A stretch of 35,483 nucleotides of DNA, from positions 1 through 35,483 of the forward strand of contig JAJEPU010000035.1 in NCBI GenBank assembly GCA_020686985.1. Reading direction: 5' to 3'. Of the stretch, positions 1-10,960 are shown one piece after another. Below the pieces are notes generated by a model. That model searched no databases. It had not been told where the DNA came from and saw only the letters and a list, made by a program, of their open reading frames with translations. Both the position numbers and the translations under genes were made by a program. The stretch's first letter is position 1. Each line of letters starts with the position of its first letter. The DNA comes from Brotaphodocola catenula (lineage in GTDB: Bacteria; Bacillota; Clostridia; Lachnospirales; Lachnospiraceae).

Positions 1-117
1 AAATGCTATGATAAAGGCTTTAAAACAACTGGCTTGCCAGCACGTCTACCATTTATAAAGTTGTAAACTGGTGTATATAGTATAAAAGTTATCGAAATCT
101 CTTCCGTTTTCACATCT

Positions 118-138: not shown

Positions 139-142
139 CAGT

Positions 143-220
143 GGTAACCGGCTGACCTGGTCAAATTTTCTGACTTTAGCCCCTTCTGGCTTTGCGTCCC
201 TGCCTTTCAGCAGGTTTGCC
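143..220 (-). promoter_or_regulatory. c-di-GMP-I (GEMM) riboswitch reading out of the left edge
   Basis: On the minus strand the element starts with GGCAAACC, then has a P1b hairpin (CTGCT, GAAA tetraloop, GGCAG), the near-invariant GGGACGCAAAGCC joining segment, a GGGGCTAA segment, and a 3' part ending GCCGGTTACC. These are the landmark blocks of the GEMM class I aptamer, in the right order and at the right length (about 78 nt). It lies downstream of the kinase ending at 305 and has its own promoter, so it should control a gene beyond position 1. That gene is not visible. Confidence 0.9.
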
Positions 221-249
221 TTTAAATAATTTCTATTTTTATCAAAAAT

Positions 250-278
250 AAAATACCATGAATGTTTTTACACGTCAA
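250..278 (-). promoter_or_regulatory. Sigma-A promoter for the edge riboswitch transcript
   Basis: On the minus strand TTGACG (273-278) and TATTTT (250-255) are 17 bp apart. The predicted start is about 243, roughly 20 nt before the riboswitch aptamer. This makes the riboswitch a separate transcription unit and not a 3' tail of the kinase operon. Confidence 0.6.
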
Positions 279-304: not shown

Positions 305-3175
305 TTATATTATCTGCCCACTGCTTCTCAACTCTTTGCTTATGGTCTGCTTAATTTTTTTATCATCCAACGGCTTTGCAAGATGTGCGTTCATTCCTGC
401 TTCCATACACTTTTCTGCATCTTCCCTGAATGCATTTGCAGTCATAGCAATAACAGGGATTGTTTTTGCATCCTGCCGCTCCAAAGCTCTTATTGTTCTC
501 GTGGCAGTAAGACCATCCATCACCGGCATCATAACATCCATCAAAATAACATCGTATGTTCCCGGTGCGGAAGCTTCAAAGTGCTGAACAGCTTCTAACC
601 CATTATTCACTGCTTCTACTTCAGCCCCATTTTCCGTCAGTATGAATTCTGCTATTTCCACATTCAGCTCATTATCTTCAACCAGTAATACCCGGACGCC
701 TGATATATCTGCATCAAAATCTTCTTTTTCTTCTGGTCGTGCATTCGTATCAATTTTAAATGGAAGTACTACAGTAAAACAGCTCCCTTCACCCAGCTTA
801 CTCTCAACGGTTATCGTTCCGCCCATCTTTTCTACAAGTTGCTTCACAATAGGCATTCCAAGACCTGTCCCGCTATAATCAGAACGTGCAGAATTGTCTG
901 CCTGTACAAATGGAGTAAATAATTCATTTTTTATAAATTCTTCCGACATTCCAATTCCATTATCTCTTATTTTAAATTCACATGTCATATGATCTTCTGA
1001 TCTTTCAATCGTTCTCATACTCATGTAAATAGTTCCATTCACCCTATTGTACTTCATACTGTTTGTAAACAAATTCATCAATATTTTTTTCAGATGAACT
1101 GCATTGCTCCAAACATATACACCGCTATAATCATCATGTTCGCCTATGATGCAAAGTCCTTTTTCTTCTGCCTGAAAGGATAGTGGCTCCGTGATTTCTT
1201 TACATACCTGATCCAGATTGATGGATTCATCACTAAAAACCACTGTATCCGATTCTAACTTTGCCATATCTAAAACATCATTTACCAACGATAATAGCAG
1301 TTTTGAAGACTCCTTTATTTTATTCAGACAATCTTTTGCCCGCTCACCATCATTTCCGCTTTTTTCAAGAATTGTAAGCATACCAATAATGCCATTGATC
1401 GGTGTCCTGATATCATGAGACATATTATTTAAAAAGGAAGTCTTAGCCTTATTGGCACTCTGTGCTTCTACAAGTGCATTATGTAATTCCCGCTGTTTTT
1501 CTTCAAGTTCCTGATTCAGCTTCAATGCCTGCTCAGCAGACTTCTTGGATTGTTCTTCCGCACGTTTTGACTTTTTTAAAGAATCAAGAATGATACACAG
1601 AACAACGAAAAAAGAAATTCCAACTATAAGTGAGACTGTCAGTAAATTATCCTGAATAAAATCCCTCGCTGTAACTTTGCGTGAGGAAGCATTATACGAA
1701 ACTACTGCACCCGAAAATTGAGTTGTAGGCATAGATGTCAGTGTTTTATTCAGAATGGACAAAAGAACCGGTTCTCCCTGCTGAACAGCAAATGAAACAT
1801 CCGCTTCTTTTGTCAGGAAAACGCTATGAAGTTTATTATCTTTCAAATAGTCAGAAACCGTACCTGAATTGCTTACAATACAATCTGCCACCTCTTTCTG
1901 CATTGCTTTTACTGCTGCATCTGATGTCTCATATTCCACGATCTCCCATTGCGGATAATTGTACGAAAGATATGCTTTCAATGCAAAATTGTCTTTTTCA
2001 ACGGCAACTATATTCTCTTTATTTTCATCAAAAGAATCCTTTGCCGTAATTGCTGCCATATTGAGAGCCAATAGTGTATCTGACAAAGCAAATCCATTTG
2101 TTTCCGCAAAGTATGGATTCTGGTTTGCATGAAAAATCAGGTCTATTTTTCCATCCTGCAATGCCTGAAGCAGTTTACTTCTTGTATCATACCCCTTTAA
2201 TTCAAATTCCAACGTCTGGCCTTGCAGACAATTTTCTGCAAGATCCACATAATCTGTGATAACACCTGTCAGTTTACCTGTTGATGGATCTACACTGCTG
2301 ATACCTCCATCCTGATTCAGATACCCTATCCAGATTGCACCATGCTGCCCAACCCACTCCCTTTCTTCTTTTGAAAGAAACGAGCTGCTCTGTGCAGAAA
2401 GATAACGCCTGTAGAGATCATCTGTGTAAAATGGGTTGTCATCCTTGATTCTGCGCATAGCACGATCCAATGCTTCTTTGATATCCGGACGTTCTGGATT
2501 TATAGCGAAATAGATTTCTGTCTCTCCAATACTTGTAAGCGGTGAAATATCCGATTCTTCCCAACGGGATTCTTCTACCGAAACGAAGCAGTCAATTTCA
2601 TGTTTCGACAGTTTGTCCATAATTTCTGTGGTTGTAGAAACATTGATATGCTTCGTATGCAGACCATATTTTGATTCCCATTCATTAAGCACATCCTCCA
2701 TTATATTATCTTTAGACACACCAATATTTTTCCCCTCAAAAGAATCCAGATTTCCTGCTGTAAGATCCATATTGGATGCATCTGTATAGATGTAATATTT
2801 CTCTTTCCCCATAGGCATATCGGAAAAAAGCATATTTTCAGCACGTTCGTCTGTATAGGAAATACCGCCAAGAATATCAATTTCTCCGTTTTCCAACTGT
2901 GTAAAGCAATCTTCCCAATTACTTGTTATGTATTCATAACTCCATCCTGCATAACCTGCAATGTCTTGAAGATACTCATAACCATATCCTCTTCGTTCTC
3001 CCTTTTCATTGACGATATTATAAGTTTCTTCAAAAGATCCTACCCGGACAACATTATCAGAATTTTCTTTGGCAGATGTGGAAACAGGAAAAACAATCAA
3101 GCATATCATTGTGCAAAATATAAAGTAACAAAATTTGAAATTCATTATATTCTGTACTAATCTGCACTTCTTCAT
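305..3175 (-). CDS. Hybrid sensor histidine kinase with two periplasmic-type solute-binding domains
   Basis: This 956-residue membrane hybrid kinase should sense a small solute and feed a phosphorelay. A signal/anchor segment occupies about residues 10-35. Two tandem SBP_bac_3-like modules follow (about 40-260 and 275-490), then a membrane helix (about 510-535) and a coiled coil. The HisKA domain has its phospho-acceptor in SHDIRTP (His587). The ATPase domain shows an N box (NLFTNSMKYN), DNGIGMS and GTGLGMPIV. A C-terminal receiver has the acidic pair in LLVEDNELN, phospho-Asp880 in ILMDVMMP and a late AKP lysine. An upstream in-frame ATG exists at 3247, but the ATG at 3175 follows GGAGGGTGGGAG and puts the signal segment at the N-terminus, so 3175 is preferred. 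It is the last gene of a four-kinase minus-strand array. The ligand is unknown; EvgS/BvgS-type architecture is the closest known analogy. Confidence 0.92.
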   Translation of the reverse strand: MKKCRLVQNIMNFKFCYFIFCTMICLIVFPVSTSAKENSDNVVRVGSFEETYNIVNEKGERRGYGYEYLQDIAGYAGWSYEYITSNWEDCFTQLENGEIDILGGISYTDERAENMLFSDMPMGKEKYYIYTDASNMDLTAGNLDSFEGKNIGVSKDNIMEDVLNEWESKYGLHTKHINVSTTTEIMDKLSKHEIDCFVSVEESRWEESDISPLTSIGETEIYFAINPERPDIKEALDRAMRRIKDDNPFYTDDLYRRYLSAQSSSFLSKEEREWVGQHGAIWIGYLNQDGGISSVDPSTGKLTGVITDYVDLAENCLQGQTLEFELKGYDTRSKLLQALQDGKIDLIFHANQNPYFAETNGFALSDTLLALNMAAITAKDSFDENKENIVAVEKDNFALKAYLSYNYPQWEIVEYETSDAAVKAMQKEVADCIVSNSGTVSDYLKDNKLHSVFLTKEADVSFAVQQGEPVLLSILNKTLTSMPTTQFSGAVVSYNASSRKVTARDFIQDNLLTVSLIVGISFFVVLCIILDSLKKSKRAEEQSKKSAEQALKLNQELEEKQRELHNALVEAQSANKAKTSFLNNMSHDIRTPINGIIGMLTILEKSGNDGERAKDCLNKIKESSKLLLSLVNDVLDMAKLESDTVVFSDESINLDQVCKEITEPLSFQAEEKGLCIIGEHDDYSGVYVWSNAVHLKKILMNLFTNSMKYNRVNGTIYMSMRTIERSEDHMTCEFKIRDNGIGMSEEFIKNELFTPFVQADNSARSDYSGTGLGMPIVKQLVEKMGGTITVESKLGEGSCFTVVLPFKIDTNARPEEKEDFDADISGVRVLLVEDNELNVEIAEFILTENGAEVEAVNNGLEAVQHFEASAPGTYDVILMDVMMPVMDGLTATRTIRALERQDAKTIPVIAMTANAFREDAEKCMEAGMNAHLAKPLDDKKIKQTISKELRSSGQII

Positions 3176-3292
3176 CGTTCTCCCACCCTCCAGGCTACAG
3201 CCGCCTGCTTGCTTCCAGATTTTAATTTTACATTCATTAGCGTTCAATACCCCACAACAGTTTTTTTAGTTTCTCTGCGGTCGGTACATAAC

Positions 3293-3309
3293 AAGCGCCA
3301 CTGGCGCTT
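3293..3309. repeat. Perfect 7-bp hairpin between kinase genes
   Basis: AAGCGCC and GGCGCTT are separated by ACT in the 157-bp gap between the GAF-PAS kinase and the downstream SBP kinase. No U-run follows on the minus strand, so a processing or partial-attenuation role is more likely than termination. This is inference from sequence only. Confidence 0.4.
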
Positions 3310-3332
3310 TGCACCCTTGCGGAGCGTATCAC

Positions 3333-5534
3333 TCAGAAGAGGATTGTCTCCCCTCCTGAGAAGACTTGTGATGTCAGCAATTTTGTGATTGCTCTTTTTA
3401 ATAACGGAATATCAATCGGCTTCCCGATATGTTCATCCATCCCGGCATCCAGACAAGCTTTTCGGTCTTCCTCAAAAGCATTTGCCGTCATGGCAATGAT
3501 CGGGATCTTTTTGGCATCTTCACGTTCCAACCCACGGATTGCTTTTGTTGCTTCCAGTCCATCCATGACCGGCATCATCACATCCATGATGATAAAATCA
3601 TACTCACCCATCTTAGAATTTCGGAATATTTCAAGTGCTTCTTTTCCGTTTTTTGCTTCAACAATATCCAGGTGCTCTTCTTCCAGTATTGCATGGGCGA
3701 TCTCCATATTGATGGCATTATCTTCAACAAGAAGCACCCGCTTCCCTGACAGATTCATGCTCTGCGGGCAATTATCCTTCTGCGGATCGTTATTTTCAGC
3801 CAGATGATCTATCTCAAATGGAACCGTAAATGTAAACGTGCTTCCTACATTTTCTTTGCTTTCCAGTTCTATTGTTCCACCCATCAGTTCAACTATATCT
3901 CTCACGATTGAAAGCCCCAGACCAGAACCACTGAATGTCGTAGTTGACCGTTTACCTTCCTGCGCAAAAGCATCAAACGCATGTTTTTGAAATTCCTCAC
4001 TCATTCCAAGACCGGTATCTGAACATACAAACTGAAAAACCGCCGTATCCCCATCATCTGATAATTCTTCGCAATGAATATTCACTGTTCCATGAAAATG
4101 ATTATATTTAATCGCATTGGAAGAAAGATTCATCAAAACCCTGTTCAGATATAGCGGACTTCCAATCAAATGTCTGTGGCGGATTATGCTTTCTTCCACA
4201 CCGCCTTCAAATCTCACGCCATTCTCATAAGCACTCATTGCAATAACCGTCAGCTGATTATTTAACAGGTCTACCAGATCAAAGGGCTTATTATCCAGCA
4301 CAAGGGAGCCTGATTCCAGTTTACTGATGTCCAAAACGTTATTAATTAGATCCAACAAATAATCTGTGGACTGAAGCACCTTCTGCCTGCATTCCCGCAG
4401 CTTGACCACATCTTTGTTATGTTTTTCAGCGATATGGATCATCCCCACGATTCCGTTTAGCGGTGTACGGATATCGTGGCTCATACGCCGGAGAAAGGCT
4501 GTTTTTGAAAGATTCGCGCGATGAGCATCTTCCATGCTTGCCTTAAGCTGTTTCTGATACATGAGTTCTCGTGATTTTTCTTCCGTAATATCCCGTGCGA
4601 CATAAAGCACATCCACAGCGTTTCCCTGTGCATCTCTGCTCTTTACAATAAATCTGGACAGCCGCCATTCTCCATTTGCTCCCATAAATTCAATCGAAAT
4701 AGAATTTGCATTCCGGAGTCTCTCGGTCAATGTATCAAATTCAAGAAACTTTTGGTACTTTTCTCTCTCTTCAAGACCAGCAAATGCTGTTGGAAGCTGT
4801 TCCATAATATCATCAATTTTTCCCTTTTGACCAAGTATTTTTCGCACAAGGTCATAGCCCTCCAGAAGCTCATATGTCCGTTCCTTAATATTAGCATACA
4901 CAATCGTTACATACAATGTGGCAATTGCAGAAATAATCTCTGCCTTTTTTGTTGCCTCATCAAAAGCCTTTTTCAACAGTACCGTATTTTTCAGATTTTC
5001 CCTCACACATCCAAGATGCCCGCCAACGTCAGACAGCAGTGTAATGGAAATCTCATTCTGTCTCAAATCAGGATTATCTACTCCGATGAATCCATTCATC
5101 TGATGATTGGCATAAATCGGCACTGCAATCAATGAACATATTTCCTGTGTTTTTAACAATTCATATTCTTCCGGTTCAGAATATTTTGTCGCTTCCAGAT
5201 CATCGATCACGATTACTTCCTTGTTTTCAAATCGTTTCATCCAGTTTGGCATTAGACTGACTGGGATTGCCTGAAGATTATCTATCTCTGGTATCACTCC
5301 ATCAGCACACCATTCAAACGTATTACTCAGGCTGTCCTTCTGATCGGTTTCCCAGTCAAAAACATATACCCGGTCTGCCCCTGTATAATTTCCGATTGCC
5401 TGCAGCAAAGATGGTATGACTTCTGACACCCCCTGCTCATTTTCCACCTGATCCATGAGTGATATCTGATGCAGAATCGTATCCATGCTATGTAATTTTA
5501 TCTGATAGAATTCCTGAATATCTTTTGTTCCCAT
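3333..5534 (-). CDS. Cytoplasmic GAF-PAS hybrid sensor histidine kinase
   Basis: This 733-residue hybrid kinase has no signal peptide or membrane segment and so should sense an intracellular signal. Residues 30-180 resemble a GAF domain, with the typical core around EICSLIAVPIYANHQMNGFI. Residues 200-320 look like a PAS domain ending in the characteristic VARDITEEK junction. HisKA follows with His353 in MSHDIRTP. The ATPase domain has NLSSNAIKYN, DTGLGMS and GSGLGLSIV. The C-terminal receiver has LLVEDNAIN and phospho-Asp651 in IIMDVMMP. The ATG at 5534 is preceded on the minus strand by GGGGGATAAAAA. It sits 45 bp from the upstream twin-SBP kinase and is probably co-transcribed. No cofactor-binding residue for the GAF or PAS can be assigned by eye, so the stimulus is unknown. 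Confidence 0.9.
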   Translation of the reverse strand: MGTKDIQEFYQIKLHSMDTILHQISLMDQVENEQGVSEVIPSLLQAIGNYTGADRVYVFDWETDQKDSLSNTFEWCADGVIPEIDNLQAIPVSLMPNWMKRFENKEVIVIDDLEATKYSEPEEYELLKTQEICSLIAVPIYANHQMNGFIGVDNPDLRQNEISITLLSDVGGHLGCVRENLKNTVLLKKAFDEATKKAEIISAIATLYVTIVYANIKERTYELLEGYDLVRKILGQKGKIDDIMEQLPTAFAGLEEREKYQKFLEFDTLTERLRNANSISIEFMGANGEWRLSRFIVKSRDAQGNAVDVLYVARDITEEKSRELMYQKQLKASMEDAHRANLSKTAFLRRMSHDIRTPLNGIVGMIHIAEKHNKDVVKLRECRQKVLQSTDYLLDLINNVLDISKLESGSLVLDNKPFDLVDLLNNQLTVIAMSAYENGVRFEGGVEESIIRHRHLIGSPLYLNRVLMNLSSNAIKYNHFHGTVNIHCEELSDDGDTAVFQFVCSDTGLGMSEEFQKHAFDAFAQEGKRSTTTFSGSGLGLSIVRDIVELMGGTIELESKENVGSTFTFTVPFEIDHLAENNDPQKDNCPQSMNLSGKRVLLVEDNAINMEIAHAILEEEHLDIVEAKNGKEALEIFRNSKMGEYDFIIMDVMMPVMDGLEATKAIRGLEREDAKKIPIIAMTANAFEEDRKACLDAGMDEHIGKPIDIPLLKRAITKLLTSQVFSGGETILF

Positions 5535-5579
5535 TTTTTATCCCCCTGTGCCCCCAATTGTATTCCAAAGAACGATCTC

Positions 5580-8408
5580 CTAATCATTATGTACATATCT
5601 TAAAATCGTTTTTATAACTTCATCAATCACAATCGGCTTTGACAAATGTGCATTCATTCCTGCATCCAGTGATGCCTGAACATCTTCAGCAAATGAATTG
5701 GCTGTCATTGCTATAATAGGAATGTTTTTTCCATCCGGTCTGTCATTCATCGCCCTGATTGCTTTTGCTGCTTCATAACCGTTCATTTCAGGCATCATGA
5801 TATCCATCAGGATTACATCAAATGTACCTTCCGGATGATCTCTGAAAATCTCAACAGCATTCTTTCCATCTACAGCTCTTGCTACATTCATTCCAAACGC
5901 TTCCAGCTGCACGGCAGCAATCTCTGCGTTCAGTTCATTATCCTCTGCCAGAAGAACATTGACACCTGTAAGATTTACTTTTTCAGAAAAAACTGTGTCT
6001 GACTTATTGCATTCCTTATCTGTAATTTCCAAAGGAATATCCACGGTAAATGTGGTTCCCTCATTCTTTTTGCTCTGTACGGAAATGGTTCCACCCATCA
6101 TATCCACATACTTCTTTACAATAGCCATCCCCAGTCCTGCTCCATGGTACTGCGTTCTCACATCAGAATCTTCCTGTGCAAATTTCTTGAAAACTTCTTT
6201 TATAAATTCCTCACTCATTCCAATACCGGTATCAGAGATGCGGTAACGCATATTTATATATCCATCCCCGTCATTTTCCTGATAACGGGCTTCAAAGGTA
6301 ATCGTCCCTCCATCCGGAGTGAACTTCACAGCATTACTCAGAATATTGACCAGCACATCACGCAGGCGCACAGGATCTGCAAGTACATTTGGGATCTTTG
6401 CCTCTTCACGCTGGATCTTAAAGTTGATATCCCGGTTTGTAAGAAAACCTTTGGTAATATCCAGTGCCGAATCTGTGATACTTTTCACATCTGCCGGTAC
6501 CGGACTGTATTTCACTTTTCCACTTTCCACGCGTGTCAGGTCTAATACGTCATTGATCAGCGACAGTAAATGCTCTGAGCTTTCGTTAATCTTTTCTAGG
6601 CATTTTCTCACCTCACCTGACGGATTGTTTTTCATTGCAATACCGGTAAATCCAATAATCGCATTCATCGGTGTCCTCATGTCATGGGACATGTGTGACA
6701 GAAATGCTGTTTTTGCCTTGTTTGCAGCCTGTGCATGTTCTGCCAGCTCCGCCATTTTCTTCGCATTCTGCTGAGCTGCCATCTGAGCTTTTTTTCTTGC
6801 ACTGAGACGCATCGTTATCACAGCCATAGTAACCAGCAGCCATCCAAAAATCAGAAGAATCAAAACAGTAAGAACAGGATGCAGACGAATCCAATCAACA
6901 ACTGTCAGATCTGTTGCTTTGTATGTGGTATACCGTGCTGCAATATCTTCGACAAGATTTCTTGGCATGCCATACATTGCTTTCGTCAGGATGCCAGCCA
7001 GCGCATGGTTCTCTGTTGATGAAATTACCATGCGGTAGGTGTATGTAGGCTGTTCCAGCAAAGTATATGTCAAGGTGCCTGTGGTGTCACTATTCACAAA
7101 TGCCTGAGTCATATAATAATAGACGAAGGCAGCATCGGCTTTTCCCCTGCGAACAGCTTCCATCATTTCCAGTCGGGTACCGCACATCAGTTTTTCCGCA
7201 CCGGGTGCCATTTCATCTGCAATTGAATTTGACGCTGTCTGGTCAACCGTAGCAACAACATTGATTTTTCCATCAAAGTCTCGGCGTGTCACCTTTGCCA
7301 GCTGCATCGTAATGTAAGGTGCAGTAAGTGCCCATTCTTTGGTCTCAGCATAGTTATCTGTTTCCAGGCGTGCATCAATGCTGATATCTGTAGCTTCTTT
7401 ATTTCCCTGATAAGCAATATACTCATCTCTGGTGACAGGTGTGAGGAACTCATAGGAAATTCCGGCATAATCCGCAATTTTCCGGAAATAATCCGGGATA
7501 ATCCCCTTCATCTCACCGTTTTCATTATAAGAATATGGATAACGGGTCGGATCACACAGAATATGAAGCGGATTGTCCCTGGAATATTGTGCAATAATAC
7601 TCTGTTCTTTCTCTGTATATTCTAGCCTCTTAGTTTCTGTGCTTTCATAGTTTTTATTATAAAGCGTAGTTTTCCAGTCATCCTCAACTGCATTCATCTG
7701 ATCGATCGCATAATTGACCTCATTCAGTAATTCCGTATTGCCTTTTTTTACAATGACATAGAAATCACTGTTGCCAAATTTATCTACGATACGCTCATTC
7801 TTTGTTTTTCTCAGAGAACTGGTAACAATAGCATCAACAGCTCCGCTCTGAAGGGCTTCATCCATTTCTGCGGTCGTATCAAAATAAGATGGTACATATG
7901 TAAATCCTTTGTTGTCTGCAAAATTCTCAAACTCTTCATTCCGGGTGTTTCCGTTCAAAAGCGCCACGCGCATACCATTGTAGGTACTGTAGTTTCCATC
8001 TATAATCGTGCTGTTGTCACTGCGGACGGTCAGAATCCCATTATTGGTTCCGATCGGACGTGAAAAATCAAACTTTCCTTCTCTGTCCGGTGTTTTGCGG
8101 GCAGATGTTACCATATCAATCTCGCCATCTTCAAGCATCTGCTGCATATCTTCCCAACTCTTATCATATCCAACATATTCATAATTTACATCCCAATAAC
8201 GGGCCATCAGCCGAAGAAAATCATAGCCATACCCACTGCGGTTGCCCTTTTCATCCATCATGTGATAACCATCCATGGCAAAGAAACCGACTTTGACAGT
8301 TTCATGCTGTGAGGCTTCCTTGGCTGCATATACCGCCTGCGGATACATCGTCAATATACACAACAAAGTCATCAGCAATGCCATGCACTTTTTTACCCCT
8401 GAAATCAT
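5580..8408 (-). CDS. Hybrid sensor histidine kinase with two solute-binding domains
   Basis: This 942-residue kinase has the same architecture as the gene ending at 305. It has a cleavable-looking signal peptide (hydrophobic core then VYAAKEA), an SBP_bac_3-like module at about residues 37-255, a second at about 280-490, and a membrane helix at about 510-535. HisKA carries His575 in MSHDMRTP. The ATPase domain shows NILSNAVKFT, DTGIGMS and GAGLGMAIV. The receiver has LLAEDNELN and phospho-Asp869 in ILMDIMMP. The start at 8408 is chosen over the in-frame ATG at 8450 because AGAAGGAG lies just upstream and the signal peptide is then N-terminal. Its closeness to the kinase at 305 suggests an old duplication, but the sensor halves have diverged strongly, so the two probably bind different ligands. 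Confidence 0.92.
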   Translation of the reverse strand: MISGVKKCMALLMTLLCILTMYPQAVYAAKEASQHETVKVGFFAMDGYHMMDEKGNRSGYGYDFLRLMARYWDVNYEYVGYDKSWEDMQQMLEDGEIDMVTSARKTPDREGKFDFSRPIGTNNGILTVRSDNSTIIDGNYSTYNGMRVALLNGNTRNEEFENFADNKGFTYVPSYFDTTAEMDEALQSGAVDAIVTSSLRKTKNERIVDKFGNSDFYVIVKKGNTELLNEVNYAIDQMNAVEDDWKTTLYNKNYESTETKRLEYTEKEQSIIAQYSRDNPLHILCDPTRYPYSYNENGEMKGIIPDYFRKIADYAGISYEFLTPVTRDEYIAYQGNKEATDISIDARLETDNYAETKEWALTAPYITMQLAKVTRRDFDGKINVVATVDQTASNSIADEMAPGAEKLMCGTRLEMMEAVRRGKADAAFVYYYMTQAFVNSDTTGTLTYTLLEQPTYTYRMVISSTENHALAGILTKAMYGMPRNLVEDIAARYTTYKATDLTVVDWIRLHPVLTVLILLIFGWLLVTMAVITMRLSARKKAQMAAQQNAKKMAELAEHAQAANKAKTAFLSHMSHDMRTPMNAIIGFTGIAMKNNPSGEVRKCLEKINESSEHLLSLINDVLDLTRVESGKVKYSPVPADVKSITDSALDITKGFLTNRDINFKIQREEAKIPNVLADPVRLRDVLVNILSNAVKFTPDGGTITFEARYQENDGDGYINMRYRISDTGIGMSEEFIKEVFKKFAQEDSDVRTQYHGAGLGMAIVKKYVDMMGGTISVQSKKNEGTTFTVDIPLEITDKECNKSDTVFSEKVNLTGVNVLLAEDNELNAEIAAVQLEAFGMNVARAVDGKNAVEIFRDHPEGTFDVILMDIMMPEMNGYEAAKAIRAMNDRPDGKNIPIIAMTANSFAEDVQASLDAGMNAHLSKPIVIDEVIKTILRYVHND

Positions 8409-8505
8409 AATAGATCTCCTTCTGTCTGTCAAATATATTTCTCTATCCATCTCCCTGCCAATCTCCTGGTTTAATAAAATTGCACTACCGCATCAAATCC
8501 ATTTA

Positions 8506-9846
8506 TTACTGTTCAATGACCTGCGTTTCGGTTCTCCCGCCGTATTTTATGCATCTAATCGTCTTTTCCAATCCCTTCATTGCAACCGGTTTTGAAACAT
8601 GTGCATTCATACCAGCTGCCAGAGAATGCTGAATATCCTCTGAAAATGCATTGGCCGTCATGGCAATGATCGGAATTGTCTTTGCCAGTTCATGAGAACT
8701 TCTGCGGATTGCTTTTGTTGCCTCATAACCATTCATAACTGGCATCTGCACGTCCATCAGAATCATGTCATAATCCCCAGGAGCAGACTTTTCAAATGTC
8801 TCAAGAACTCTTTCACCATTTTCACAGATGGTACATTCTGCACCTTCAATCTTTAACAGTTCCGTCAGTATCTCTGCATTCAGTTCATTATCTTCCGCAC
8901 ACAGGAATCTCATTCCCCGAAGGATACTATCATCCTGTTCATCCTTTTCTGTCTGTGATGCTGAAGAAACAGATTTATCCTCTGCAATTTTCAGATCTAT
9001 GAGAACCTCAAAACAGCTTCCCTGTCCCAGTTCACTCTCCACATCAATGGTGCCTCTCATTGCTTCAACCAGCTTTTTGGTAATAGCCATTCCAAGACCG
9101 GTTCCCTGGATCTCATTAGTCACAGAACTTTCGGCACGAGTAAAAGCATCAAAGATTATATCTGTAAAATCTGCTGACATTCCTATTCCATTATCCCTAA
9201 CTAAGAAACGGTACTTTGCATAGACAGGTGAATTTGTCTCACATTCTTCTACCAGAAACTGAATTTTTCCACCTTCCTGCGTGTACTTCACTGCATTAGA
9301 AAGCAGGTTGCTGAAAATCTGCATCAGGTGAACCTGATCCCCGTTCACCCATTCATGTCGGATATTTTTCTTTGTTGTAAGAGTCTGTTTTTTTTCGTCT
9401 ATCTGTGAATAAAATAGATTATTGATTTCCTGTATAAAATTCAGAATGGAAAAATCATTGTATTTAAAAACTGTTTTTCCTGCCTCAATTTTGCTCATAT
9501 CCAGAACATCATTAATAATCCCTAACAGATGCCGGGATGAAATATCTATTTTATCTGCATACTCTATTACTTTATCTTTATTTCCTGCATCATGTCTTAT
9601 TAATGATGTCATACCAATAACTGCATTCATAGGAGTACGTATATCATGTGATATATTAAACAGAAAATTAGATTTTTCAACACTGGCTGTTTTCGCCTGC
9701 TCCAATGCTTTCTGCAGCTTTTTATTTAATTCCAATACTGTATTTTCCGATTTCTGTGTTCTGTGCAGTAACATAAGAACAAAAACAAATCCAGTTAAAA
9801 GCAAAACAATTAATAAACCGCAGCCCCATAATATATATCTTTTCAT
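8506..9846 (-). CDS. Histidine kinase-receiver half of a frameshifted CHASE hybrid kinase
   Basis: This 446-residue open frame starts with one membrane helix (residues 4-27) and a coiled coil. HisKA follows with His67 in NISHDIRTP, then an ATPase domain (LLSNAVKYT, DNGIGMS, GTGLGMAIT). The receiver has LCAEDNELN, phospho-Asp365 in ILMDVQMP and a SKP lysine near the end. It lacks a sensor of its own. The sensor lies immediately upstream in another frame (9722-10630), and the two frames overlap by 125 nt. The single helix here is exactly the second transmembrane segment expected after a CHASE domain. I infer one ancestral gene split by a one-base indel near 9846. No strong ribosome binding site precedes the ATG at 9846, which argues against an independent gene. 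Confidence 0.85.
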   Translation of the reverse strand: MKRYILWGCGLLIVLLLTGFVFVLMLLHRTQKSENTVLELNKKLQKALEQAKTASVEKSNFLFNISHDIRTPMNAVIGMTSLIRHDAGNKDKVIEYADKIDISSRHLLGIINDVLDMSKIEAGKTVFKYNDFSILNFIQEINNLFYSQIDEKKQTLTTKKNIRHEWVNGDQVHLMQIFSNLLSNAVKYTQEGGKIQFLVEECETNSPVYAKYRFLVRDNGIGMSADFTDIIFDAFTRAESSVTNEIQGTGLGMAITKKLVEAMRGTIDVESELGQGSCFEVLIDLKIAEDKSVSSASQTEKDEQDDSILRGMRFLCAEDNELNAEILTELLKIEGAECTICENGERVLETFEKSAPGDYDMILMDVQMPVMNGYEATKAIRRSSHELAKTIPIIAMTANAFSEDIQHSLAAGMNAHVSKPVAMKGLEKTIRCIKYGGRTETQVIEQ

Positions 9847-10630
9847 TTCTATTCCATCCGTTTTTAGGCATCACTTCCAGCATCCATTGACTGTCACCTA
9901 ATTCAAAAGTATATGTAACAGGATCAATCATTTCCACACCTGAGCCATACACTTCTTTGTATGTTTCATCCCACGGTGCAATATTTTTGGACAACTTATA
10001 TTCATAGCCAAAATCGGAAAGAGACTTTATAGAATCAGCGAATATATCTGGTACACGAATAATTACAATTGTAAATCCCCAAAATGTCCTTTCGCCGTTT
10101 TTCTGCTCCAGATACACTGGATTTCTTACAGCGATCCCCATTCCACCCTGTTTCAGGGAAAACGGTCCCTGCATGGTTATCACATCATTGTCTCTGGCAT
10201 AACAAGATATCTTTCCTCGTTCTTTATCATGAATAAGATCTATCTTTCCAGTTTCATTTCCGGCTTCCGGGTAAATCTCAGCCACTACACCGTCTGGTGC
10301 GATCTGAATACTCTGGATATAATCTGCCATCATATTCTCCGCAACTTTCGAGAACATAGAAATTTTTCCATTTTTACTAATAACAATCTGTTCAAAAGTA
10401 TTTGTAATATCAATTCCTCTCACAATATCAGCCTTCATATGATCTGCATACGTTACTGCGTTTAATTCAGCTCTTGACCTTATCAAATCCCTTTGACTGC
10501 TATCCGCACAAACGCCTATTTTCACCAGAACAATCAAACCGATAATCAATACAAATACCGGAATCCATAACTCTTTTTTTATCCTAAATGTATTTTTTCG
10601 TTCCTGTGCTGACCTAATTTTCTTCCACAT
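9722..10630 (-). CDS. CHASE-type sensor half of the frameshifted hybrid kinase
   Basis: This 302-residue frame opens with a cytoplasmic stretch and a membrane helix (about residues 21-43). An extracytoplasmic domain of about 210 residues follows, and its composition and ending (SQWMLEVMPKNGW) fit CHASE sensors of hybrid kinases. The part after about residue 267 (LRFINCFAFNW onwards) reads like out-of-frame sequence: the same DNA in the next frame encodes a proper membrane helix and the kinase. The ATG at 10630 has AAAGGAAATAGG upstream. This is the first gene after the c-di-GMP riboswitch at 10827-10889. Removing one A from the AAAA run beside the junction would join the halves smoothly. This may be a real mutation, an assembly error or recoding. 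Confidence 0.8.
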   Translation of the reverse strand: MWKKIRSAQERKNTFRIKKELWIPVFVLIIGLIVLVKIGVCADSSQRDLIRSRAELNAVTYADHMKADIVRGIDITNTFEQIVISKNGKISMFSKVAENMMADYIQSIQIAPDGVVAEIYPEAGNETGKIDLIHDKERGKISCYARDNDVITMQGPFSLKQGGMGIAVRNPVYLEQKNGERTFWGFTIVIIRVPDIFADSIKSLSDFGYEYKLSKNIAPWDETYKEVYGSGVEMIDPVTYTFELGDSQWMLEVMPKNGWNRNEKIYIMGLRFINCFAFNWICFCSYVTAQNTEIGKYSIGIK

Positions 10631-10734
10631 AACCTATTTCCTTTACACCTACGTTTTTATCTGCTCCATTTTTATATTTTAGCGGTCACCAATTATTACC
10701 TGCTTGTTTTAGTTTCCTTTCCTGCGCCGAGTGC

Positions 10735-10784
10735 GCATCCTAGCGGATGCTTTTTTTACATGATAGGATGCAATTTCCTATCAT
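10735..10784 (-). promoter_or_regulatory. Secondary hairpins of the riboswitch leader
   Basis: Two further inverted repeats lie between the terminator and the CHASE kinase. One is ATGATAGGA with TCCTATCAT (10760-10784). The other is GCATCC-TAGC-GGATGC (10735-10750). The first contains, on the minus strand, TGCATCCT, which is complementary to AGGATGCA at the base of the upstream terminator. It could therefore form an alternative antiterminator pairing. Confidence 0.55.
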
Positions 10785-10786
10785 AT

Positions 10787-10815
10787 AAAAAAAGCATTGT
10801 CATTGCAGACAATGC
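10787..10815 (-). terminator. Intrinsic terminator controlled by the c-di-GMP riboswitch
   Basis: On the minus strand a perfect 8-bp stem, GCATTGTC and GACAATGC with a 6-base loop, is followed by seven U residues. It lies 11 nt downstream of the aptamer and before the first kinase gene, the standard place for a transcriptional expression platform. Confidence 0.85.
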
Positions 10816-10826
10816 ATCCTTAACGT

Positions 10827-10889
10827 GGCAACTGGCTACCATTTTACAGGCCCTATAGCTTTGCGTCGCAGACTTTCATCTGTTTTGCC
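10827..10889 (-). promoter_or_regulatory. c-di-GMP-I (GEMM) riboswitch of the kinase operon
   Basis: On the minus strand the element runs from GGCAAAACAG through a GAAA tetraloop hairpin (CAGAT and GTCTG) to the hallmark CGACGCAAAGC. Then come TATAGGG and CCTG, and a 3' block ATGGTAGCCAGTTGCC. The terminal GGCAA can pair with TTGCC to close the aptamer. Class I GEMM elements bind cyclic di-GMP and commonly control motility, adhesion and signalling genes. Here the downstream gene is the CHASE hybrid kinase heading a four-kinase array. Recognition rests on the conserved joining block and on order and spacing; no covariance score was computed. Confidence 0.92.
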
Positions 10890-10931
10890 GATTTTCTTAT
10901 TATAGCTTTTAAGCATGAAAAAACTGGTTTT

Positions 10932-10960
10932 ATTATACTCTAATGCTCTGCTATATACAA
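10932..10960 (-). promoter_or_regulatory. Promoter of the riboswitch-kinase operon
   Basis: On the minus strand TTGTAT (10955-10960) and a perfect TATAAT (10932-10937) are exactly 17 bp apart. The predicted start near 10925 is about 35 nt before the aptamer. A second TATAAT lies closer to the aptamer (about 10897-10902) but has no recognisable -35 box. Confidence 0.7.

Follow-up and report, generated by a model that had tools for sequence, protein, structure and literature searches.

The stretch of DNA analysed here, hereafter the window, is the whole of contig JAJEPU010000035.1 (C41; 35,483 bases) of Brotaphodocola catenula, a member of the Lachnospiraceae whose assembly comprises 3.32 Mb in 112 contigs. 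Its subject is an array of hybrid histidine kinase genes, preceded by a leader with a class I cyclic di-GMP (c-di-GMP-I) riboswitch and followed by a second riboswitch of the same class. The genes tsf and rpsB sit upstream of the array. The features of the locus, in the order in which they would be transcribed, are the following.

10932..10960, minus strand: leader 1 promoter, TTGTAT-17-TATAAT (read in the sequence and in related leaders)
10824..10899, minus strand: riboswitch 1, c-di-GMP-I aptamer of 76 nt (RF01051)
10794..10815, minus strand: leader 1 intrinsic terminator, 8-bp stem with a T-run after it (terminator scan and related leaders)
10805..10839, minus strand: predicted antiterminator of leader 1 (complementarity)
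9722..10630, minus strand: kinase 1 sensor half, CHASE domain (open reading frame and domain profiles)
8506..9846, minus strand: kinase 1 kinase half, HisKA-HATPase_c-REC, in another frame (open reading frame and domain profiles)
5580..8450, minus strand: kinase 2, with SBP_bac_3 (two stretches), HisKA, HATPase_c and REC; start probably at 8408
3333..5534, minus strand: kinase 3, with GAF, HisKA, HATPase_c and REC (open reading frame and domain profiles)
305..3247, minus strand: kinase 4, with SBP_bac_3, HisKA, HATPase_c and REC; start probably at 3175
250..278, minus strand: leader 2 promoter-like site, TTGACG-17-TATTTT (consensus promoter scan)
140..230, minus strand: riboswitch 2, c-di-GMP-I aptamer of 91 nt, with GAAA loop and full-length P3 (RF01051)
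74..82, minus strand: 9-bp sequence TACTATATA, read as a target-site duplication and repeated on contig C29 where the resident sequence begins
1..73, minus strand: end of an IS701-family element (copies in the genome; transposase of one copy)

The kinase array and its two aptamers

An Rfam scan of the window returned two class I c-di-GMP aptamers and no other matches. The aptamer that an earlier note on this DNA had claimed at the head of the array is confirmed by covariance search against RF01051, which places riboswitch 1 at 10824-10899 on the minus strand with 58.1 bits and an E value of 4.9e-9 (gathering threshold 35). Riboswitch 2 scores higher (73.8 bits, E 7.5e-13) and sits behind the last kinase, at the far end of the array, pointing off the contig; both it and the insertion-element end at 1-73 were left outside the array as that note drew it, from position 305. 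These are the only two RF01051 matches found in this genome, a lower bound, since 150 of the 238 first-look candidates were scored.

Both aptamers contain the ligand-contact motifs GGCAAA, GACGCAAAG and GUUGCC/GUUACC, at consensus positions that we take to correspond to Vc2 G20, A47 and C92. According to the available parts of two structural sources, these three nucleotides contact the ligand (PMC11218506, PMC9049102). Riboswitch 1 keeps the GAAA loop and has a P3 without the apical stem and tetraloop receptor (2 bases against 13 model positions), and riboswitch 2 retains both regions, with one deviating position. The receptor is presumably located within P3 where it has been placed here. Riboswitch 1 thus falls outside type I, which combines a GNRA tetraloop with a matching P3 receptor; only its subtype is affected, the subtypes being those given in the accessible text of PMC11218506.

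Between the two aptamers lie a CHASE kinase in two frames, an SBP_bac_3 kinase, a GAF kinase and another SBP_bac_3 kinase. All four cores combine HisKA, HATPase_c and REC, the composition of hybrid histidine kinases, and carry both phospho-acceptor motifs, that is, the H-box with its His and the Asp motif (D-box) of REC. The four consecutive minus-strand hybrid kinases of the earlier note are therefore recovered as cores, with the correction that the first is split into two overlapping open reading frames, its sensor being out of frame with the kinase half, which alone shows the hybrid composition. Three of the four are intact as sequenced, kinases 2-4 being full length. Among the scan matches, no minus-strand terminator-like site falls in the short gaps between the kinases, and the strongest promoter-like match, at 8432-8404, runs across the likely start of kinase 2, which is put at 8408 after the first residue of its relatives.

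Up to the 9-mer TACTATATA, the region of riboswitch 2 matches a leader from another genus (genome G125) at 94.6% identity over 186 bp; that leader precedes an orthologue of a fifth kinase. Contig C29 of the present genome begins with 75 foreign bases, followed by TACTATATA, the remaining part of leader 2 and a gene start (91.8% over 1,397 bp to G125), and the foreign ends on the window contig and on C29 are inverted repeats, CACCAGTTTACAA and CACCACTTTACAA. The end found in the window is present 11 times in the genome, counting that one, and 7 of these copies lie no more than 10 bases from a contig end; one copy of the element encodes an IS701-family transposase. Given the matching leader halves, the inverted-repeat ends and the 9-bp duplication, window 1-73 and C29 1-75 are read as the opposite ends of one IS701-family element, at which the assembly broke; on this sequence evidence, the insertion separates riboswitch 2 from its own terminator and from kinase 5. 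The latter, on C29, has the order PAS-HisKA-HATPase-REC-REC, and of its about 1,070 codons 172 precede an in-frame stop. The five leaders similar to riboswitch 2 that were fetched all precede a kinase 5 orthologue (78-96%; G182, G213, G125, G254, where it is truncated, and G285), and the motif ATTGACG also lies upstream of four of them. Two aptamers of 92 nt (L135, L136) and another of 91 nt (L207) precede other genes. Aptamers 1 and 2 may once have served one larger array, which, judging from the frameshift in kinase 1, the insertion behind riboswitch 2 and the stop in kinase 5, is partly decayed in this genome. One switch gating four kinases, as the earlier note had it, is thus too simple a picture in view of the two aptamers, the frameshifted kinase 1 and the insertion between riboswitch 2 and kinase 5.

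Leader 1 and its predicted switching

Thirteen leaders of the riboswitch 1 kind, that of the window included, align end to end with a mean column identity of 86%; a 14th similar one is found in Blautia sp. MSJ-9 (L327), and all 14 are of the short-P3, 76-nt type. The promoter of the earlier note, which lies at 10960-10932 (TTGTAT-17-TATAAT), holds up in this alignment, the pattern TTG...-17-TATAAT being kept in 13 of 13 leaders; its first hexamer agrees with the consensus at 3 of 6 places, so that the consensus promoter scan does not list it. The intrinsic terminator claimed alongside it is likewise upheld by the stem at 10815-10794 and its T-run: the 8-bp stem is paired in all 13 leaders and runs into a T-rich tail, which is not continuous in the two Coprococcus catus leaders; one pair of the stem is changed on both sides in three leaders, and its covariation score is reached by 4 of 500 shuffles. 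Just behind the terminator, window 10735-10795 holds a further long inverted repeat whose arms, about 20 bases each, take in the T-run (by eye), and also a small hairpin that reads as a plus-strand terminator; these features were not seen in the other printed leaders.

The 3' part of the aptamer (10839-10826) is complementary to the 5' arm of the terminator (10817-10805), with 10 of 12 pairs possible in the window. Ten leaders have all 12 pairs, and there the terminator and antiterminator states differ by -2.7 to +2.7 kcal/mol, an energy balance as it should be in a bistable switch. At its actual placement the antiterminator has 96% of its cells paired, against 16-56% when it is slid along the alignment as a control. 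A fold of the incomplete transcript of the window and MSJ-9 leaders gave another pairing, with P2.

Because the strand that pairs with the terminator arm belongs to the aptamer, a design that matches Cd1 of Clostridioides difficile, leader 1 is predicted to be an OFF switch acting by transcription termination, with a reserve for the window's own copy. When c-di-GMP is absent, the terminator's 5' arm would be taken up in pairing with the 3' part of the aptamer, and transcription would enter the kinase array; when it is present, the aptamer would retain that strand, the terminator would form and the array would be off. Leader 1 would in this way control all genes of the array, provided that the transcript extends that far.

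Recurrence of the unit and reshuffling of its kinases across the Lachnospiraceae

Matches to c-di-GMP-I were found in at least 2 of 24 genomes of the same genus (this one included, the other aptamer preceding a large Ser/Gly-rich protein) and, with stricter filters, in at least 135 of 397 genomes of the family. These counts are lower bounds, as the genus and family searches scored part of the candidates (117 and 10 per genome, respectively). The surveyed loci comprise 20 regions that were selected for aptamers of 74-76 or 91-92 nt once the arrays had been seen, and are therefore not a random sample, and 79 further loci from the top-scoring part of the family list, in which the first five open reading frames downstream were read, to a distance of about 5.5 kb. 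Masked stretches in several loci were read as they are, and L225, which is the same place as L122, was left out.

The 14 related leaders are distributed over 10 genomes: this one, MSJ-9 (two), C. catus (two), Blautia wexlerae, G141 (two), G125 (two), G244, G285, G182 and G049. At least one hybrid kinase lies behind 13 of them (9 genomes); in G049 a GGDEF gene stands there without any kinase. A kinase likewise follows the aptamer of L043, which resembles the others less and is masked in part. The comparison with other Lachnospiraceae proposed in the earlier note thus came out in its favour, as the arrangement recurs and its kinase orthologues are reshuffled, and riboswitch-led kinase units are a recurrent minority of the GEMM-I (c-di-GMP-I) leaders of the family.

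Three simpler views were discarded in the course of this survey. That riboswitch 1 is an isolated oddity is ruled out by the 14 related leaders, and that all GEMM-I leaders of the family precede kinases is ruled out by the 2 clear and 1 weak cases among the 79 loci. Neither is the short-P3 aptamer restricted to kinase arrays: in L121, L125, L128 and L129 it precedes genes with signal-peptide-like starts (by eye), and in two records labelled 'Bacteriophage sp.', which may be bacterial contigs (L331 and L332), the genes are without kinase matches (one record in whole, 12 kb of the other). L331 holds two close short-P3 aptamers at 9659-9936 and L332 has one at 5994-6069. Plasmid pILYOP01 of Ilyobacter polytropus, from another phylum, has a short-P3 aptamer followed by a substrate-binding protein and an HD phosphohydrolase (L333 5001-7636). 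As a separate observation, a small HTH-type gene (110 amino acids where complete; tested against Pfam for L041 only) stands just upstream of 7 of the 14 leaders (L041 7767-8099, L078 1527-1859, L122, L123, L126, L132 and L327 4839-5156); it is not in the window.

The kinases behind these leaders vary in order and combination. Full-length orthologues of kinase 2 (85.4-88.5% identical) occur in six related units and those of kinase 4 (90.5-92.4%) in four, at differing positions and in differing combinations; kinase 3 has a remnant in MSJ-9 that is 95% identical in its best segment, and further kinase remnants stand directly behind some leaders in relatives. Among plasmids, the best match to kinase 2 is 31% identical. 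The core of kinase 1 is 73-84% identical to kinase cores in G125, G285, G244 and G141 and 78% identical to one on contig C64, and the reading frames with these cores show no match to the CHASE profile. A search of 12 distinct genomes with its CHASE half (C. catus went in twice) gave proteins 49-54% identical to it in 9, all of them array-bearing, and the two of these relatives that were read both carry a GGDEF motif. Since the core relatives are without a CHASE match and the CHASE half resembles other proteins, the pattern of kinase 1 suggests that its sensor has been exchanged and that a probable cyclase has the same kind of sensor. Taken together, the unit probably moves and reshuffles among the Lachnospiraceae.

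Two side observations concern the kinases themselves. A second array in this genome (L268, contig C64 4000-14960) comprises two substrate-binding-type proteins and three hybrid kinases without an aptamer, and its first kinase core is the one 78% identical to that of kinase 1. In MSJ-9, a remnant at L039 9296-10798 fuses part of the kinase 2 sensor to the kinase 3 core with an overlap of about 10 bp and broken frames, and looks like a natural deletion chimera.

Proposed output, rival explanations and known systems

Hybrid kinases of this build usually act through an Hpt protein. As no Hpt domain was found in the array kinases, a route through a stand-alone Hpt is proposed: the kinases, with their varied inputs (CHASE, substrate-binding-protein-like and GAF), would probably pass phosphate via such a protein to response regulators. 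The genome has one Hpt match, a 122-amino-acid protein on contig C16; the gene next to it codes for a REC-HD-GYP protein that has the HD and GKGYP motifs, so that C16 encodes both partners of a possible phosphorelay to a c-di-GMP phosphodiesterase, and this REC-HD-GYP protein would be the likeliest response regulator. The genome also has 6 GGDEF, 1 EAL and 2 HD-GYP-type matches. In relatives, such genes lie within the riboswitch-led units: the order is kinase 4, kinase 2, Hpt in MSJ-9 and substrate-binding protein, kinase, kinase 2, Hpt in G244, with Hpt directly behind the kinase 2 orthologue in both; the other unit of MSJ-9 (L039) includes a REC-HD-GYP gene; and a GGDEF gene comes first behind the leaders of G182 (kinases next) and G049. 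The step from phosphorelay to phosphodiesterase could equally well hold or fail. If it holds, sensors made at low c-di-GMP would then adjust c-di-GMP, so that the messenger and a multi-input phosphorelay would act on each other in a loop.

The reading as a whole, a terminator-type OFF switch over a multi-input phosphorelay that probably feeds back on c-di-GMP turnover, is given an even chance. A number of observations weigh against it. In the leader, 297 of 500 shuffles yield as many two-sided terminator pairs, and the two-sided change is limited to a related subgroup formed by the window, MSJ-9 (L039) and the second C. catus leader. The same three have 10 antiterminator pairs only, and their antiterminators fall short of the terminator state in stability by 8.6, 15.2 and 19.1 kcal/mol, respectively; these copies may therefore be locked in the off state. 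Across the 13 leaders the antiterminator shows no two-sided changes, and it does not beat shuffled alignments, 500 of 500 of which reach it. At the level of the loci, the reading frame of kinase 1 is broken; the 79 other c-di-GMP-I loci have a kinase core downstream in 2 clear and 1 weak cases, and 76 lack kinases; and among 80 loci with kinase 3 relatives (named genomes) aptamers are present in 4 only, namely in MSJ-9 (L039), C. catus (L041, two), L043 and B. wexlerae (L078). Finally, an HD-GYP gene lies within about 1.5 kb, in one case a weak one, at 6 of 22 stand-alone Hpt loci (48 matches were listed, 30 with loci, of which 8 with the Hpt domain in an open frame of more than 700 amino acids were excluded). 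The control of a multi-input phosphorelay by a second messenger, as foreseen in the earlier note, gains from the leaders before hybrid kinases in 9 genomes and from the Hpt, GGDEF and REC-HD-GYP genes in some units, and loses by the computed weakness of the window's own antiterminator.

If leader 1 were instead an ON switch, c-di-GMP would favour read-through, and the sensors, together with a phosphodiesterase in one relative, would be made at high c-di-GMP as ordinary negative feedback. A phosphodiesterase behind the aptamer, as in L039 and Ilyobacter, would make homeostatic sense in such a scheme, and the CmrRST system of C. difficile is raised by c-di-GMP via riboswitch Cdi-2-2, according to the available text of PMC6837544; however, since the 5' terminator arm pairs with the aptamer's own 3' part, a bound ligand would be expected to leave the terminator free to form, and an ON switch is considered unlikely. 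Rather doubtful, too, is the view that the aptamer governs the first gene only, or nothing, the array being a decaying remnant whose kinases 2-4 depend on other promoters, a view compatible with the OFF switch in relatives. It would account for the frameshift in kinase 1, the weak antiterminator, the insertion between riboswitch 2 and kinase 5, the in-frame stop of the latter and the kinase remnants behind several leaders, but kinases 2-4 have kept their full length and their H-box and REC motifs, the gaps between them are short and without a listed terminator-like site, the best promoter-like match (8432-8404) overlaps the probable kinase 2 start, and orthologues stand behind leaders in other genomes. 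A somewhat better chance, still short of even, is given to kinases with DNA-binding or other outputs unrelated to c-di-GMP turnover, the link to HD-GYP, Hpt and GGDEF being neighbourhood noise. Possible partners are many (64 matches to the kinase-REC query in this genome, many of them REC only), and 16 of the 22 stand-alone Hpt loci are without an HD-GYP neighbour; against this stand the Hpt in two riboswitch-led units, the REC-HD-GYP gene in one, the GGDEF gene behind two leaders and the fact that the only Hpt match of this genome adjoins REC-HD-GYP.

A wider and distinctly tentative extension would be a mobile sensory module in which a strongly conserved promoter-riboswitch-terminator leader moves between gut Lachnospiraceae genera with exchangeable kinases, Hpt proteins and c-di-GMP enzymes. 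Low c-di-GMP would turn on sensors which, once made, either keep its level down or let it rise; the result would be a self-reinforcing decision switch with several inputs, and sensor exchange would retune these inputs. To our knowledge, c-di-GMP signalling in gut commensal Lachnospiraceae has been little studied, and the matches listed in the open-access literature (titles and abstract starts) include no description of hybrid-kinase arrays led by c-di-GMP-I in this family. A leader that stands repeatedly before sensor kinases, some with c-di-GMP enzymes, would put the messenger above, and not only below, environmental sensing; it suggests that the choice of sensors to be made is set by the level of the messenger, and brings a feedback loop within reach of a test. 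Its recurrence shows sensors gained, shuffled and lost behind one conserved RNA switch.

Cdi-2-2, the riboswitch of CmrRST, is by its name a class II riboswitch. In the accessible part of its description, it lies upstream of a kinase/response regulator system and regulates it positively (PMC6837544), and a c-di-GMP riboswitch before a histidine kinase system is thus already known. CmrRST differs in that positive regulation, in having one kinase and two DNA-binding regulators, and in its phase-variable inversion, whereas the aptamers of the window are class I and the genes between them are hybrid kinases rather than one kinase and two OmpR-family response regulators. Known as well is the convergence of hybrid kinases on one Hpt, with an effect on c-di-GMP, as in the HptB cascade of Pseudomonas aeruginosa, where three such kinases are involved; this cascade is proteobacterial, its output passes via HsbR/HsbA/HsbD and not REC-HD-GYP, and the text available from the source mentions no riboswitch (PMC5085249). 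Tandem c-di-GMP-I riboswitches, of which 347 doublets are reported in the consulted portion of PMC9481103, resemble the window in having two such aptamers near each other; here some 10.6 kb separates them, each has a promoter-like site and a gene to itself, and they do not share one leader. Finally, an OFF switch with a c-di-GMP-I aptamer is known in Cd1 of C. difficile; as far as the accessible text of PMC9262584 goes, its terminator and ligand-bound aptamer coexist and its antiterminator uses an aptamer strand. Leader 1 shares with it the aptamer family and the terminator/antiterminator platform, and differs from it in that Cd1 controls flagellar genes, whereas here hybrid kinases follow an aptamer without the P3 apical stem.

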